This document shows positions 1 to 5,739 of a stretch of 64,000 nt of DNA, one piece after another. The notes beneath the pieces are model-generated. The model saw only the letters and a list, made by a program, of their open reading frames with translations. It did not search any database and had not been told where the DNA came from. The translations under genes were made by a program, and so were the position numbers. The DNA lies in assembly GCA_024655945.1 (NCBI GenBank), contig JANLFK010000008.1:1-64000 (forward strand). Reading direction: 5' to 3'. How positions within the stretch are numbered: position 1 is the stretch's first letter; each line of letters opens with the position of its first letter. The DNA comes from a candidate division KSB1 bacterium. GTDB lineage: Bacteria > Zhuqueibacterota > Zhuqueibacteria > JANLFK01 > Oleimicrobiaceae.

Positions 1-327
1 GTGTGGAGACGGCCGTTGTCGGAGATGATTACCTCAGTGAAAGGGCCCGAAACTGGCTTGCCGATTCATTTCAGTCTTGGTCAAAACTTTCCGAACCCGT
101 TTAATCCAGCGACGACTATTTCCTTTAGTCTTCCATCGAAGTCGTTTGTAATACTGAAAGTATTTGATGCTTTGGGAAGAGAAGTGTCGACTCTCATTTC
201 AGAGGAGTTGTCTGCTGGAATGTATGCACGACAATGGAATGCGGCAGGTTTGCCGAGCGGTGTGTATTTCTACCGTTTGCAAGCTGGTTCGTTTGTCGAG
301 ACGAAGAAACTTGTCTTACTGAGGTGA
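1..327 (+). CDS. C-terminal fragment of a secreted protein with type IX (Por) sorting domain
   Basis: Partial gene: the reading frame is open to the window edge, so the GTG at base 1 is probably not the true start. The visible 108 residues contain the motif QNFPNPFNPAT near residues 28-38. A beta-rich segment (ILKVFDALGREV, then GMYARQWNAAGLPSGVYFYRL) follows, and the protein ends KKLVLLR. This is the layout of the T9SS type A / FlgD-like C-terminal sorting domain, which is recognised in the periplasm and usually cleaved as the cargo reaches the cell surface. The catalytic or binding part of the protein is off the window. The stop codon lies 11 bp before an attC-like site, and the DNA is AT-richer than the neighbouring chromosome. 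The gene therefore probably sits in an integron cassette. Confidence 0.8.
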   Translation: MWRRPLSEMITSVKGPETGLPIHFSLGQNFPNPFNPATTISFSLPSKSFVILKVFDALGREVSTLISEELSAGMYARQWNAAGLPSGVYFYRLQAGSFVETKKLVLLR

Positions 328-338
328 TGGGCAAATGC

Positions 339-462
339 AACTAACAGCACAAACAATGTTGCTTCATTATGATGAATTATTGTGACTCAATATTTTTGCT
401 TACTTTCAATTCGGTTTTTATATGTTCGCAAAAATACTGCATTGTTTGTGCACACGTTAGGC
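339..462 (+). repeat. integron attC-like recombination site 1
   Basis: An imperfect palindrome of about 124 bp directly follows a stop codon. The right core site is GTTAGGC at 456-462, matching GTTRRRY. The left core is AACTAAC at 339-345, one mismatch from RYYYAAC. Next to the cores is a perfect 12-bp inverted repeat, GCACAAACAATG at 347-358 against its complement at 440-451. An inner 9-bp stem pairs 391-399 with 428-436. Core sites, inner stem and position between two same-strand genes are those of attC (59-base element) sites used by IntI. The expected recombination point is between G456 and T457. Confidence 0.75.
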
Positions 463-1498
463 GAAGCGGCGGCAAAGAAAGGAGGTGATGTTAAGACGGA
501 TGAGGGGAATCCAATCAGATGCGGAGCGTTTTATTGAGGGTGGGATAAAATCGCTCGGTTTGATTGGAGGAGAATCGGTGAATAACACCACCCAAAAACA
601 GAAGGAGGTAAGTCATGAAAGGCAAAATCGCAACAATAATGGTGGCATTGGTCACAATCGCAGTCCTTTTTCCTACTCTTGCTTTTAGTCAGGAGATACC
701 GCGTGAAAAGCCAGGTGCATGTTGGGTTAACTTTAAAGAAGGAAGTTGGGTGAAGTATAAGATGAGAATGGGAGAAATGGAAGCGGTAATAAAGAAAACC
801 TTGAAAAGCAAGACTGCAGAGGAGGTTGTAGTAGTAACAGAAACAGAAATACCTGGTATGCCTTCATCTTCAGTAGAAGAGCATCTTTCACTGAAACCCA
901 AGGAAGAAGAAGGGCAAATTAAGGTTATTAAGACATCTGAGGAAGATATAACCCTTGCTGGTAAAAAATTTAGATGTAAGGTTATTGAATATGAGGATGT
1001 AAAGGAAAAGTACACTGCGAAAATATGGCTTTCTGATGAGGTGCCGTTTTTGTTCGATCGCGGGGTTGTTAAAGCATCACAGCAAGATGAAGGAGAAAAA
1101 GAGGCAAAAGTGGTATGGGAGTATGCTGGAGAAAAAGAGTTTACTGTAGGAGATAAGAAGGTGAAGTGTACAATATTTACAATATTTAAGGGTGAAATAG
1201 ATGAAGAAGGGGACAAAGAATACTGGGTTTCTAAGGAAGTCCCCGGGATGCAAGTGAAACTGGGCGAGCTTCTTGAGTTGATTGATTTTGAGATAAAGTA
1301 AAAAGAGCAAGCCGCAAAAATTTTCTTGGCCGCCGTTTCGCCTAACACGGGCTTTGCGGCTCACTTCGTTCGTCCAAACCCAGCCCTCTAACCCATAAAC
1401 TATGGCTGAAAGGTAGAAATACGGTTATTGGTAAATTCGGTGGTTTAGAGGTAAAATCAAAACGAATAGAGGGCTGGGCTTCGCAAAGCTCGGGAACG
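457..1498 (+). mobile_element. complete integron gene cassette
   Basis: The cassette runs from the TTAGGC half of attC 1 to the G of the right core of attC 2 and carries a single gene on the same strand. Its first bases after GTTAGGC (463-480) are the near-perfect inverse of the bases just before GCCTAAC at 1340-1346. Excision as a circle would join these ends, so the cassette's own attC stem would be extended by about 18 bp. That is what a genuine cassette should show and is hard to explain by chance. The interior is clearly AT-richer than the flanking chromosome. No integrase or attI is visible; they should lie upstream, outside the window. Confidence 0.75.
615..1301 (+). CDS. unknown secreted protein, integron cassette gene
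   Basis: 228 residues. A strong AAGGAGG ribosome site lies 6 bases before the ATG. Residues 1-25 form a signal peptide (positive start, hydrophobic core VALVTIAVLFPTLAFS), so the product should be periplasmic or exported. The mature part is rich in Lys and Glu. It seems to contain two similar halves: one has CKVIEYEDVKEKYTAKIWLSDEVPF and the other has CTIFTIFKGEIDEEGDKEYW followed by VSKEVPGM. The arrangement resembles DUF3108-type lipocalin-like folds, but I cannot assign a family with confidence and do not propose a function. It is the only gene of the cassette bounded by attC sites at 339-462 and 1340-1505. Its AT-rich codon use differs from all chromosomal genes to the right, consistent with acquisition by transfer. 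Confidence 0.8.
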   Translation: MKGKIATIMVALVTIAVLFPTLAFSQEIPREKPGACWVNFKEGSWVKYKMRMGEMEAVIKKTLKSKTAEEVVVVTETEIPGMPSSSVEEHLSLKPKEEEGQIKVIKTSEEDITLAGKKFRCKVIEYEDVKEKYTAKIWLSDEVPFLFDRGVVKASQQDEGEKEAKVVWEYAGEKEFTVGDKKVKCTIFTIFKGEIDEEGDKEYWVSKEVPGMQVKLGELLELIDFEIK

Positions 1499-1505
1499 TT
1501 AGGGC
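1340..1505 (+). repeat. integron attC-like recombination site 2
   Basis: About 165 bp. The left core is GCCTAAC at 1340-1346, a perfect RYYYAAC match. The right core is GTTAGGG at 1498-1504, followed by C. Two paired segments lie between them: GCTTTGCG at 1351-1358 with 1482-1489, and a perfect 12-bp repeat CCCAGCCCTCTA at 1379-1390 with 1467-1478. Unpaired bases break the symmetry next to the outer stem (GGG and CGGG differ by extra bases), as in attC bottom-strand folding. It lies about 40 bp after the cassette gene's stop. To its right the sequence becomes GC-rich, so this is probably the distal end of the array. Confidence 0.78.
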
Positions 1506-1789
1506 GTAATCACTAATGGCCCCTCACTCAGATCTGCGCCGCATGCCACTTCTTCAGCCCGCCCTGAGGACCAGGGCCGTGAGCCAAGGAGCACCTCACG
1601 ACTCGGCTACGAATTGGCAACCGCTGCAGAAAAGTGCCGATGCTGCGGGCGCCACCTGGTAACCCCTGCGAAGTTTGGAGCCTCCCCGGAATTTCGAAAA
1701 GCGAGGCGCTCGCGACTCGCCCACTGGGTCAGGCCACGCATTCCCGTCGGCACTCGAGGACTATGAGCGCCCACTGAGAGTCAGGCACC
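1506..1789. other. non-coding junction between cassette array and chromosome
   Basis: 284 bp with no convincing gene on either strand and no further attC core pair. Base composition changes here from AT-rich cassette DNA to GC-rich chromosome. A short plus-strand open frame at 1675-1857 is Pro/Arg-rich, lacks a ribosome site and runs into the 3' end of the minus-strand thioesterase gene, so I do not count it. Confidence 0.5.
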
Positions 1790-2314
1790 TCATTCCTCCT
1801 CCCCCAAGAAGTCCCAGTCCCCCGGTGCAAAGGTCAGGTACTCGCGCACCTGTCTAGCCTTATCATCGGGCATGACGTAGAACTTGCCGGTTGCCTCGGC
1901 ATGGACCTTGCCATCCGGGCCGATGATTTCGCCTGCGGCCACCGAGTAACGCTGATGATGCGCCACCGGCCGACCGCGCACCGTGACCCGCAGTCCCACC
2001 GGCAAGGGGCGCAGGAAACGCACGTGCAGCTCGCCTGTGACAAAGTACTTCTTGCGCACCACGGCCACCGACCAGCCCATCGTTTCGTCCAGAAGCGCGC
2101 AGATGATGCCGCCATGCACCACCCCCTTGTAACCGGAGTATATCTCCGAGGGAACACACTCCACGTGCACCCCTTGCTCATCCGTCACAAACTTCAGTCC
2201 CAGCGTGGCTGCATTTGCCTGGCGGCTGCCGCAGACAATGCACCCCTCATAGGTCGGCAATGTCCTACCCGGTTCAATTTCCGCATGACAAGAGACTGAG
2301 CCTTCCTCTTCCAT
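1790..2314 (-). CDS. PaaI-family hotdog thioesterase
   Basis: About 174 residues from the ATG at 2314, chosen because GGAGG lies 9 bases upstream; the open frame extends further up to 2410 without a better start. The protein has the PaaI/4HBT hotdog pattern: KGVVHGGIICALLDETMGW, with the HGG turn and the acidic helix residue used by acyl-CoA thioesterases of this type, followed by beta strands (GELHVRFLRPLPVG). An N-terminal CxxC (GCIVCGSR) precedes the fold, as in one PaaI subgroup. The likely activity is hydrolysis of an acyl- or aryl-CoA in the cytoplasm; the substrate cannot be read from sequence. It is the last gene of the minus-strand cluster but is 211 bp away from the HAD gene and may have its own promoter. 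Confidence 0.85.
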   Translation of the reverse strand: MEEEGSVSCHAEIEPGRTLPTYEGCIVCGSRQANAATLGLKFVTDEQGVHVECVPSEIYSGYKGVVHGGIICALLDETMGWSVAVVRKKYFVTGELHVRFLRPLPVGLRVTVRGRPVAHHQRYSVAAGEIIGPDGKVHAEATGKFYVMPDDKARQVREYLTFAPGDWDFLGEEE

Positions 2315-2525
2315 CTTCGCTTTCCTCCGCAGCACACTCGTTAGCCATGGCACAAACGGGGAGAAGGGCCCCGGAAATCTCTGCGCCAGGATGTCGGCGG
2401 CCGAACACAATCGTTAGGCGCAGGGCCTGCCCGAAGTCAACCTCCCCCAGACTCAAGGCCTCTCAGGAGTCGGCCGCAGGAACAAGCATCAGCCAGTGTC
2501 TTGCACGCGAGCTCGCCAGGGCTCT

Positions 2526-3221
2526 TCAGTCCCTTTGACGAATATCATCGCCACCCTGCCTTCGGCGCAGGAGGCTGAAGAGCTCTGCGGCCCGGCTGAT
2601 GACAAAGTCCGGCCCGAGGGATTCCAACGTCGCGCGCGGCCCATAGCCCCAGGTCACCGCGCACGTGCGGGCCCCGGCGGCCTTGCCGGCAATGATATCG
2701 TTGTCGGTGTCCCCCACAACCAGGGTGGTTTCCGGAGTCGCGGCGGTGCGCGCCATGGCCGTCAGGATCATCTCCGGATGCGGTTTCAGATGTGTCACCT
2801 CCTCAGGACAGATCACCACGTCGAAGTAAGGCTCCATGTTCAATCCGGCAAGAATGCGCTTCGTGTACGGCCCCGGCTTGTTAGTGGCCACGACCAGACG
2901 ATGACCCTGCAGGCTTTGCAGCATATCCATAACACCGGGAAAAGGGCGCGTGCTGACCAGGCAGCGGTCACTGTACAGCTGGCGAAACAGCGCGATGAAC
3001 TCGCCGAACCGGTGCATGTTTTCTTCGCCGAGGGTGACGCGTGCAAAATTGTCCGGTCCAGGCCCGATGGATGCCCTCGCCTGCGCCAGGGAGATCTCCG
3101 GCAGTCCCATGGCGCGCAAGGCCAGGTTCGAGCAGAGGTGCACATCGGGCGCGGTGTCCAACAGCGTCCCGTCCAGGTCAAAGACGATGCTGGTGAAAGC
3201 CTTCGCCTTGTCGCGGGTCAT
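2526..3221 (-). CDS. HAD-family phosphatase, phosphoglycolate phosphatase-like
   Basis: 231 residues. All four HAD motifs are visible: FDLDGT (nucleophile Asp15 and acid/base Asp17), ATNKP for motif II, LKPHP with its Lys for motif III, and VVGDTDNDI for motif IV. A helical cap lies between motifs I and II. The overall pattern matches Gph/PGP-type phosphatases that clear 2-phosphoglycolate or a similar small phosphate ester in the cytoplasm. The ATG overlaps the stop of the upstream DUF6485 gene by 4 bp, indicating translational coupling at the end of a long minus-strand transcript. The exact substrate is uncertain, because this subfamily also includes pyrophosphatases and nucleotidases. Confidence 0.85.
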
Positions 3222-3412
3222 CGTTGCAGTGAGAGAAACCTGCGCAGCGACCGATCCCAGGTGCGTTCTACCTCATCAGGAAAGAAGCAGGCGGGCAACT
3301 CATTCATGCGGCGATGATAGAGAAGGCACTCGCAGCAGTAACCCTTGCGCGGGCACGGTTCATACGAACAGTTGCAGCGCTCCATATTCTTTGCAAAGTT
3401 CTTGCATTCCAT
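3218..3412 (-). CDS. small Cys-rich DUF6485-type protein
   Basis: 64 residues from the ATG at 3412, which begins MECKNF; the open frame starts 12 bases earlier. Eight cysteines at about residues 3, 13, 15, 20, 26, 27, 29 and 42 form a dense cluster ([17 protein letters not shown]). A conserved-looking ELPACFFP follows. This matches the DUF6485 family as I know it: short cytoplasmic proteins probably binding zinc or an iron-sulfur cluster, with no established function. Its stop overlaps the HAD phosphatase start by 4 bp, and it lies 60 bp after the thymidylate synthase-like gene. It is therefore part of the same transcript. Confidence 0.8.
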
Positions 3413-3472
3413 GGCATACCTCATCCTTGTTCGCCCTATCCGTCTCCATAGAAAGGCCTTTGCAGGCGGCTC

Positions 3473-4288
3473 CTACTTTTTCTCTGCGGCCAGGCGCCGA
3501 CGGGCCTCTTCGAACATTGGTTGGGCAAAATCCGAGTGCCAAGTGCGCTCGGCGAAGCTGCGCTCCTTGACGCTCCGCAGGAACCCGGCAAACTCCCAGA
3601 AATAGCTGCCGTAGATGTGGAAGCTGTCGGCAATGTCCACATAGCGCCCGACCTTGACCCGCCTGCCCAGCCTCTCCGCCAAGCGCTCGGCAATCGCGCG
3701 TTGCAGGTCCGTCAGCGCGAACATGTTCATGTAAGCCGCCTTGTAGGCGTCCCGCGAGCGCCAGTGGGTGTTCATGTTCAGCACCAGGTCACCGCCCTCG
3801 TCGGCCAGCATCCTGCACCATACCCTTTGCAGGCATGGCGGGTCGTAGGTGGGCGGGTCGGTCTTGGGGTTCCAGGTGATGGCCTGGGCCCGCCGAGAAT
3901 AGCCGACCGCAGCCAGCTTCTCGATCAGATAGTTGATCTGGTCGATAACCTCCCCTTCCATCTCATAGGCAAACAGGCGCTTGTGGTAGGTGTAGGTCCA
4001 CTTGCCCTCCTCTGGGCAGATCCAGTGGTCGTGCACGCCTTCCACCACTTCCTGACGATAGATCTCCAGGTCCTCCAGGCCGCCTGGGAAGGCGCGATGG
4101 ATACGTGGCTCGGCGAAAGGGTCCTCCACCACCATCACCATGGTGCAGTCCTTGCTGGGAGGGTCCTCGGGTTTGTCGTACTCGGTGCGGATGTCCACCC
4201 CGTCGTGCCAGCACTTCAGCACGGCGTTCTCCCAGGTCTCGGGCAAGGTCTTCGCCTGCACAAGGAAGGTCGGGATGTTTCCTGTCAT
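3473..4288 (-). CDS. thymidylate synthase-family protein (ThyA fold, divergent)
   Basis: About 271 residues from the ATG at 4288. GGGAG lies just upstream and the preceding gene's stop is one base away; the longer open frame upstream to 4546 overlaps another gene. The central part shows the thymidylate synthase/dCMP hydroxymethylase pattern: KWTYTYHKRL near residues 97-104, a catalytic Cys152 in YDPPCLQRVW, the region LNMNTHWRSRDAYKAAYMNMFAL that corresponds to the phosphate-binding Arg-Ser-xx-Asp segment, and DSFHIYGSY as the nucleotide-binding DxHIY motif. It should methylate dUMP to dTMP using methylene-tetrahydrofolate. It is divergent from Escherichia coli ThyA and closer in style to archaeal or phage enzymes. 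A related pyrimidine hydroxymethylase activity cannot be excluded. Confidence 0.8.
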   Translation of the reverse strand: MTGNIPTFLVQAKTLPETWENAVLKCWHDGVDIRTEYDKPEDPPSKDCTMVMVVEDPFAEPRIHRAFPGGLEDLEIYRQEVVEGVHDHWICPEEGKWTYTYHKRLFAYEMEGEVIDQINYLIEKLAAVGYSRRAQAITWNPKTDPPTYDPPCLQRVWCRMLADEGGDLVLNMNTHWRSRDAYKAAYMNMFALTDLQRAIAERLAERLGRRVKVGRYVDIADSFHIYGSYFWEFAGFLRSVKERSFAERTWHSDFAQPMFEEARRRLAAEKK

Positions 4289-4289
4289 G

Positions 4290-5015
4290 TCACTCCCTCG
4301 TTTTGCTGTCCAGCCTCGGCGCCTTCTTGGGGAGCCACACCCCAAGCGTGATGCCCAAGGCATGGTAAGGTTTGCCGTCAAGGTCAACACCCCCGGCCTG
4401 TGACCGACCACCCAGAGGGCGAGCGTAACGGAGCTCGAGGTGGTAGAAACCCCTCTTGAGACTGAGCCGTGCATGAGCCACGAATGTAGAGTTTTCCGCC
4501 GGGGAAAACAGCCTACCATCGTCCCAGACGTAATCCGGTAACACAACGGGCCTGCCGGTCAATGGGTCGTAGGAGTTGGGGATCTCCTGGGAGCGGAGCA
4601 CCTCCGTGTTGTCGTGCACTGCCAGCGCCAGCGACATGCCGCCGACCAATTGCCATTTCCACCTCGCCGATGGCTTGAGCTGAAACCGGCAGAGGAGGGG
4701 AAGCTCGACAAAGCCCATTGAGCAGACCTGCGAGCGCCACGTGAGCGGTGTGCCCACAGAGCAGGCTCCCACCAGTTTATCTCTGAAAAGGCCGCCCCGG
4801 GTCACATAGGCGATCTCCAGCGACAGGGAGGTGCGCGCGCGCAAGGACCATTCTTTCTCCACTGCCAGAACCACACCCGGATTGAGGGAGTGGTCGCGGT
4901 CGCGAAACGCCGAAACGCTCCACCCGGACTTGACCGTCATCCCGCTTTGTGCCTGCAGCAAGGCTGGCAAGCACAGGGCGAGTGCGCACATGGTGCAAGC
5001 CAGGCCGCTTCTCAT
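4290..5015 (-). CDS. outer-membrane beta-barrel protein
   Basis: 241 residues with a signal peptide (residues 1-22, CALALCLPALLQAQ). The mature chain has alternating amphipathic strands ending in GITLGVWLPKK, typical of the small 8-10 strand porin-like barrels (outer-membrane beta-barrel domain) common in Bacteroidota-type genomes. No enzymatic motif is visible. Its ATG overlaps the stop of the next upstream gene by 4 bp. The two genes are paralogs: SAFRDRDHSLNP and LEIAYVTRGGLFRDKL align with SAFRRHDTNKLCN and VNYTTMGGVLQDKAM. It lies in the same transcript as the thymidylate synthase-like gene. The function is unknown. Confidence 0.7.
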   Translation of the reverse strand: MRSGLACTMCALALCLPALLQAQSGMTVKSGWSVSAFRDRDHSLNPGVVLAVEKEWSLRARTSLSLEIAYVTRGGLFRDKLVGACSVGTPLTWRSQVCSMGFVELPLLCRFQLKPSARWKWQLVGGMSLALAVHDNTEVLRSQEIPNSYDPLTGRPVVLPDYVWDDGRLFSPAENSTFVAHARLSLKRGFYHLELRYARPLGGRSQAGGVDLDGKPYHALGITLGVWLPKKAPRLDSKTRE

Positions 5016-5739
5016 GGTCGGTTCCCCCGGCAGAAAATGCGGGCCAGGTCGCAGCGCACCATCAGGCGCAGACCATGTACCCGCCGGTCCACGCGGTAGA
5101 TAGAGGTCACCATGTCAGCGATCTCGCCGTCCAACTGGAAGTAGTCGGCCGAGAGCAAGCCTGCAGTGCTGCGGAGGCCAATGCCGATGTGGTAGCCCCA
5201 CCGCTTGCGGCGAAGCTCAAGAGGGCGGTACTCATAGAGCCATATGTACTCCCATCGCTCCCCGGGCTCCCACGGGTGCAGGTACTCTCCCTTGTGCATC
5301 CTGCACAGGTCACGCTGATACAGCAGCAGCGCGGGGCCAGAGAAAAACACGCCCTTCAGCCCCCTGGCGAGTGGCACCTCGAAGGCCAGCATCACCGGCA
5401 CCTCGATGAACGCCCAGCGCAACGTAAAATCGTAGGCGTATACGCCCTCGCTGCCGTACATGGCCTTGTCCTGAAGCACGCCCCCCATGGTGGTATAGTT
5501 CACCTCCAGAGCAGGGAAGCCAAGGGTGCCAGCCTCTTTTCTCCCCAGATGCCTGCGCTGCCGTTGCAGAGTTTGTTGGTGTCGTGCCGGCGGAAAGCGG
5601 ACATCAAGCCGCCTCCGCCAATGCCGCGCACGCCCAAGAGCAGACCGGCTAGGCAAGCAGGACAATCCGCCAAAGCAATGGCAATGGCCAGCGAACCGGC
5701 AGCCAGCACTCTTGAACAGGGCCCCGGCCCGCGCCTCAT
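5012..5739 (-). CDS. outer-membrane beta-barrel protein, apparently frameshifted
   Basis: The gene is read in two frames. From the ATG at 5739, which overlaps the GatD stop as ATGA, the first frame gives a signal peptide (LAAGSLAIAIALADCPACLA) and runs to a stop near 5500. The paralog-matching barrel sequence (VNYTTMGGVLQDKAM onward) continues in a second frame that is open from 5665 to 5012. Aligning with the neighbouring paralog at 4290-5015 places a one-base shift between about 5505 and 5550, near an AAAA run. This is either a sequencing or assembly error or a recently broken gene. If repaired, the protein would be about 240 residues, the same size as its paralog, and would be an outer-membrane barrel of unknown function. 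Confidence 0.65.

Follow-up and report, generated by a model that had tools for sequence, protein, structure and literature searches.

Two palindromic sites with the geometry of attC lie at the left end of the 64-kb window (the whole stretch of DNA analysed, base 1 of which is base 1 of contig C8 in a 3.94-Mb genome of 26 contigs), and their occurrence is a genuine observation, confirmed to be beyond chance. We favour, with moderate confidence, the reading of bases 1-1504 as the distal part of an array of integron cassettes, in which 457-1498 is a foreign, AT-rich, one-gene cassette that could enter such an array but would leave it poorly. The assembly would have truncated this array at base 1, and the unit at 457-1498 would be one cassette with an exported-protein gene of no known family (Table 1). 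The initial annotation had drawn attention to these sites and placed them directly after two same-strand genes in AT-richer DNA; their cores and stems proved correct on direct reading, they begin 12 nt past the stop of ORF 1-327 and 39 nt past that of ORF 615-1301, and the GC content of pieces of 1-1504 is 33-48%, against 62.8% in the remaining window.

Table 1. Features at the left end of the window (positions are those of the 64-kb window)
Feature	Position	Strand	Remarks
Exported protein, C-terminal portion, with a type IX secretion sorting domain	1-327	+	truncated by the contig start; upstream of site 1
attC-like site 1	339-462	+	R'' AACTAAC 339-345; L'' 347-358; L' 440-451; R' GTTAGGC 456-462
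Inverted-repeat left arm, 25 nt	456-480	+	first bases of the cassette, including the R' core; 92% complementary to 1322-1346
Proposed mobile unit (cassette)	457-1498	+	bounded by the G↓TT crossover points of both sites; deduced from where the cores lie and from start/R'' complementarity
Short ORF, 67 aa	485-688	+	very start of the cassette; strong Shine-Dalgarno-like AAAGGAGGTGATG; in a different frame from the main ORF, which it overlaps
Cassette gene, 228-aa protein with N-terminal signal-like hydrophobic stretch	615-1301	+	orphan
Inverted-repeat right arm, 25 nt	1322-1346	-	ends with R'' of site 2
attC-like site 2	1340-1504	+	R'' GCCTAAC 1340-1346; L'' 1348-1358; terminal stem 1379-1390/1467-1478; L' 1482-1492; R' GTTAGGG 1498-1504

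Read directly, site 1 consists of AACTAAC, A, GCACAAACAATG (347-358), a loop, CATTGTTTGTGC (440-451), ACAC and GTTAGGC, and the outer part of site 2 of GCCTAAC, A and CGGGCTTTGCG (1348-1358) on one side and CGCAAAGCTCG (1482-1492), GGAAC and GTTAGGG on the other, with an additional perfect 12-bp stem between CCCAGCCCTCTA (1379-1390) and TAGAGGGCTGGG (1467-1478). Inversely oriented attC cores of the RYYYAAC/GTTRRRY type are thus present at both sites, with AAC/GTT preserved and one mismatch in each (AACTAAC at 339-345, GTTAGGG at 1498-1504). That these two outer cores differ from GTTAGGC/GCCTAAC is what would be expected of attCs that are each common to two cassettes. Both sites also have the L''/L' inverted repeat and unpaired central spacer of an attC, with stems of 12-13 and 11 bp and core-stem spacers of 1/4 and 1/5 nt; the extrahelical bases that mark the L'' arm of an attC are absent from the L stems of both. 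On the bottom strand, site 1 folds with an unpaired spacer of 3/0 nt followed by an uninterrupted 12-bp stem, and site 2 with a 4/0 spacer, an 11-position L stem in which one pair is an A.C mismatch (G.T wobble when read on the top strand) and, beyond the L box, a long stem facing 17 unpaired nt of the R''-L'' arm. The z-scores were -3.6 and -3.9 for the folds of the bottom strand, and the top strand folds about as well as the bottom strand.

The chance expectation of such sites was assessed by a geometry scan of both strands of the 64 kb for RYYYAAC...GTTRRRY cores (at most one mismatch each) with a stem inside at spacers of 0-3 and 2-7 nt. Exactly two sites were returned, 339-462 and 1340-1504, with stems of 13 and 11 bp and one wobble each, and Markov shuffles gave 0.3 sites per strand with a stem of at least 8 bp and none with at least 10 bp. 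Elsewhere, sites with uninterrupted stems amounted to five weak matches in 1.24 Mb of mostly integrase-bearing sequence. Site 2 has no homology of note elsewhere in the genome, and an Rfam scan of window positions 1-4000 gave no matches. A lone core-like GTTAGGCGCAGGGCCTGC lies at 2400-2430, is 79% similar to the cassette start and has GCCGAAC on its 5' side; it reaches 4 bits only.

Further evidence for a mobile unit comes from the relation between its two ends. In a circular cassette, R' is built from the cassette's own first bases, which should therefore match its own R''. The unit in the window has this property, 456-480 and 1322-1346 being complementary at 23 of 25 positions (7/7 in the core and 16/18 outside it). 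Among the 36 testable start/R'' pairs per strand, this pair alone reaches at least 12/18 outside the core, and the best of 1,824 shuffled pairs reaches 12/18. For comparison, 63 cassettes between consecutive canonical attCs were collected from many phyla, their attCs having been called by the covariance model described below. Their matched start/R'' pairs agree at 6.5 of 7 core positions (mismatched pairs, 5.1) and at 5.9 of 18 positions beyond the core (mismatched pairs, 4.6), the agreement continuing to about position 12 (0.68, 0.68, 0.56, 0.41 and 0.38 at positions 8-12). None exceeds 11/18 outside the core, and the complementarity in the window, being longer than in any of the 63, is therefore odd in itself. 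When the circular form is joined and folded, the bottom strand would gain a long extra stem below the core. The unit also resembles a cassette in its economy, with its ORF running in the direction of the attC-like sites and stopping 39 nt before R''.

The unusual length of this repeat is the starting point of the main rival to the array reading, which we consider unlikely: 456-1346 would be a non-autonomous element with 25-bp terminal inverted repeats starting GTTAGGC and a passenger gene, mobilised by a transposase in trans, and the adjoining hairpins would be unrelated to it. A 25-nt, 92% inverted repeat enclosing a gene, a complementarity exceeding that of all 63 canonical cassettes and a possible 2-bp AC repeat flanking both arms speak for such an element. 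It does not explain, however, why the outer ends of both arms abut correctly spaced stems with second cores (339-345 and 1498-1504), an arrangement that the scan found nowhere else in the 64 kb, and neither 1-480 nor 1300-1520 has a second copy in the genome, gene paralogues aside.

The two sites were also compared with attC sites proper. An attC covariance model, for which 15 sites came from class 1 plasmids and 10 from class relatives, with none from the genome itself, recovered 87 sites at E ≤0.01 (24-71 bits) in 55 integrase-bearing loci of other organisms. Site 1 scored 6.7 bits (E 1.8 in 5 kb, filters off), which is background, and site 2 gave no full-length match to the model. This check had been named in advance by the initial annotation, and its outcome went against the expected score above background; because of it, both sites are termed attC-like here, by geometry and cassette logic, and not canonical attC. 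The proposal of an integron cassette end accordingly stands in part: a one-gene cassette lies between two attC-like sites, in a genome with integrase genes and canonical attC arrays, and its boundaries are not canonical attCs. Compared with the attC sites of class 1 integrons, Vibrio (VCR) and chromosomal integrons, those in the window share the RYYYAAC/GTTRRRY-type cores, the L''/L' inverted repeat, the asymmetric unpaired spacer (3/0 nt in site 1, as in a canonical site of the class relative G056), a variable terminal part of 80-120 nt, the location directly after an ORF and the complementarity of cassette start and R''; they differ in an 11-12-bp L stem without extrahelical base, in the missing canonical L-box sequence, in the background covariance score and in a start/R'' complementarity that reaches 25 nt. 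The stretch likewise resembles a CALIN, defined by IntegronFinder as an attC cluster without integrase, in having two or more sites separated by less than 4 kb and no integrase, which the contig break may have removed; it differs in that IntegronFinder calls attCs with a covariance model, and the window sites fail the model built here. Neither intI nor attI was found on the stretch of contig in the window, which begins where the contig begins. Together with the background scores and the 25-nt complementarity, this lack of intI and attI, the rarity of such sites and the equal folding of the strands count against the array reading.

A further alternative is that both sites are ordinary attCs decayed by mutation, the CALIN-like remnant of an abandoned array that has lost its extrahelical bases and L-box. 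Several IntI copies in the genome are indeed split or shortened pseudogenes, broken by frameshifts or deletions, and the IntI matches of same-genus genomes are broken or fragmentary. Random decay, however, should have left mismatches in the stems and in the start/R'' match, whereas the stems are uninterrupted over 11-13 bp, with one wobble each, and the start/R'' match holds at 23 of 25 positions; decay is therefore disfavoured, and we give it little credence. That the palindromes arose by coincidence beside unrelated genes is scarcely credible, since the cores, although only 7 nt long and with GTTRRRY common, enclose stems of a length that shuffling does not produce (none expected at 10 bp or more), and no shuffled start/R'' pair comes near the match in the window (12/18 at best against 16/18).

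If the array reading holds, the missing bulges acquire a mechanistic meaning. Integron integrases normally recognise bulged (extrahelical) bases in attC sites, and the cassette may be locked in place because both of its sites lack them. Insertion would have been performed by an integron integrase cutting G↓TT in the R' of the folded bottom strand of an attC-like site. Both flanking sites retain the cores, the inverted repeats of R and L and a central spacer that is unpaired and asymmetric, and their L stems are devoid of extrahelical bases. In published work, deletion of all three extrahelical bases from VCR2/1 reduced attC x attI recombination by a factor of only 6.2 and strand choice was lost in part; in attC x attC deletion the loss in one site cost 130-490-fold and the loss in both abolished the reaction (PMC2727003). 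The VCR2/1 and attCaadA7 mutants of that study resemble the window sites in being folded sites with core boxes, an unpaired spacer and no extrahelical bases; they differ in being laboratory-made, whereas the sites in the window are natural, AT-rich and of other sequence. By analogy with these mutants, integration at attI would proceed at a modestly reduced rate, and attC x attC excision would hardly be possible, leaving the cassette locked. We infer its mobility and foreign origin as well; its AT-richness, and the absence of homologues of its protein from the other genomes of a phylum search, suggest an incoming cassette. Positions lining the pocket for the first extrahelical base are described for VchIntIA (PMC3053210), and in the integrase fragment on contig C9 of the genome, a proline and two adjacent histidines are kept at what appear to be these positions (alignment matched by eye); the host integrase is therefore expected to prefer canonical sites.

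A more far-reaching proposal, offered as speculation that is rather unlikely to be correct, is that a natural class of attC without extrahelical bases lets cassettes enter and not leave, so that integrons acquire permanently fixed genes; such sites might be recognised by a divergent integrase whose source organism is AT-rich, the 25-nt outer complementarity lengthening the hairpin of the circular form. Should the sites work, they would be natural counterparts of the laboratory mutants that separate cassette entry from exit and would show gene fixation by integrons; moreover, covariance-model searches for attC would miss one type of array end.

Regarding the genes, the truncated ORF at 1-327 matches Por_Secre_tail (PF18962; 38.6 bits, E 1.3e-9), and its DNA is 73-76% identical to that of two neighbouring loci on contig C13 of this genome; it may be what the preceding cassette carried, or else a host gene. 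The 228-aa cassette protein has sub-threshold matches only, to DUF3108 and Polyketide_cyc2. Homologues were found neither in other genomes (a phylum search of 82 genomes) nor in viral contigs or plasmids, the best sequence matches in the PDB had E-values of 0.76-0.83, and a single-sequence AlphaFold model, with a mean pLDDT of 40, was unusable. The short ORF at 485-688, which has no Pfam match, is possibly a leader ORF. To the right, the same-genus genomes G001 and G002 show homology to the window from about 1729 and 1799 rightwards only; left of these points the DNA of each is unrelated to the window, and a clean empty site is therefore not demonstrable. In G002, a gene with a type IX secretion tail lies left of the syntenic point, and its orthology to 1-327 was not clear enough for it to be accepted as the orthologue.

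Elsewhere in the genome, IntI fragments occur on C9, C5, C10 (two places), C13 and C19, that on C9 scoring 243.7 bits over half of TIGR02249, and other contigs start or stop inside intI or near attC sites. C9:385-439 and C19:1-55 have 55 identical bases within intI in common, which is probably one reason why the assembly broke there. The clearest array is on C19, where canonical attCs of 44.6, 36.7 and 54.4 bits (3594-3662, 4209-4333 and 5419-5478) follow the 3' end of intI; canonical attCs are also present on C15 (48, 25 and 23 bits) and C5 (33 and 21 bits), and single ones lie on C1 (31 bits), close to the right end of C8 (34 bits) and close to that of C17 (17 bits). The C8 and C17 right-end arrays seem to have a cassette in common, and the assembly may have broken there for that reason; the attC-like sites at these ends (L083 3325-3388 and L169 7248-7325) are preceded by nearly identical sequence.

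The integron on C19 (L020) occupies 1-5478, with the 3' end of intI (1-118) oriented like the cassettes, which carry a ParE-like toxin with a likely partner, a membrane protein, a DUF4258/YgiT-type pair and an entire magnesium-translocating P-type ATPase (about 2.7 kb if this cassette begins at 903). A repeated element, GGCTCCTCACGCGAATTTGTGCACG..., probably a decayed insertion sequence, adjoins intI remnants or attC sites in several places (L015 541, L017 8277, L082 5082, L085, L167 and L084 3640-3815). The two best-kept IntI C-termini (L015 3-500 and L020 1-118) read LLEHKD, against the consensus LLGHKD, at the catalytic histidine motif.

The expectation of the initial annotation that the host lineage is not one with common cassette arrays has to be abandoned. 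A survey of 60 genomes (the genome itself and relatives of the same genus or class) gave TIGR02249 matches above the NCBIfam cut-off in 27, all of the host's class, in which integrons are common; a literature search on integrons in Calditrichaeota or KSB1 returned nothing relevant. Independently of the sites in the window, integrons thus occur in many members of a class that has received little study, and a single genome often holds several integrase remnants. A clean example is the class relative G056, with four attCs next to a full intI; its chromosomal integron (L049 12900-20000) has these four canonical attCs and a first cassette region that resembles a restriction-methyltransferase gene pair.
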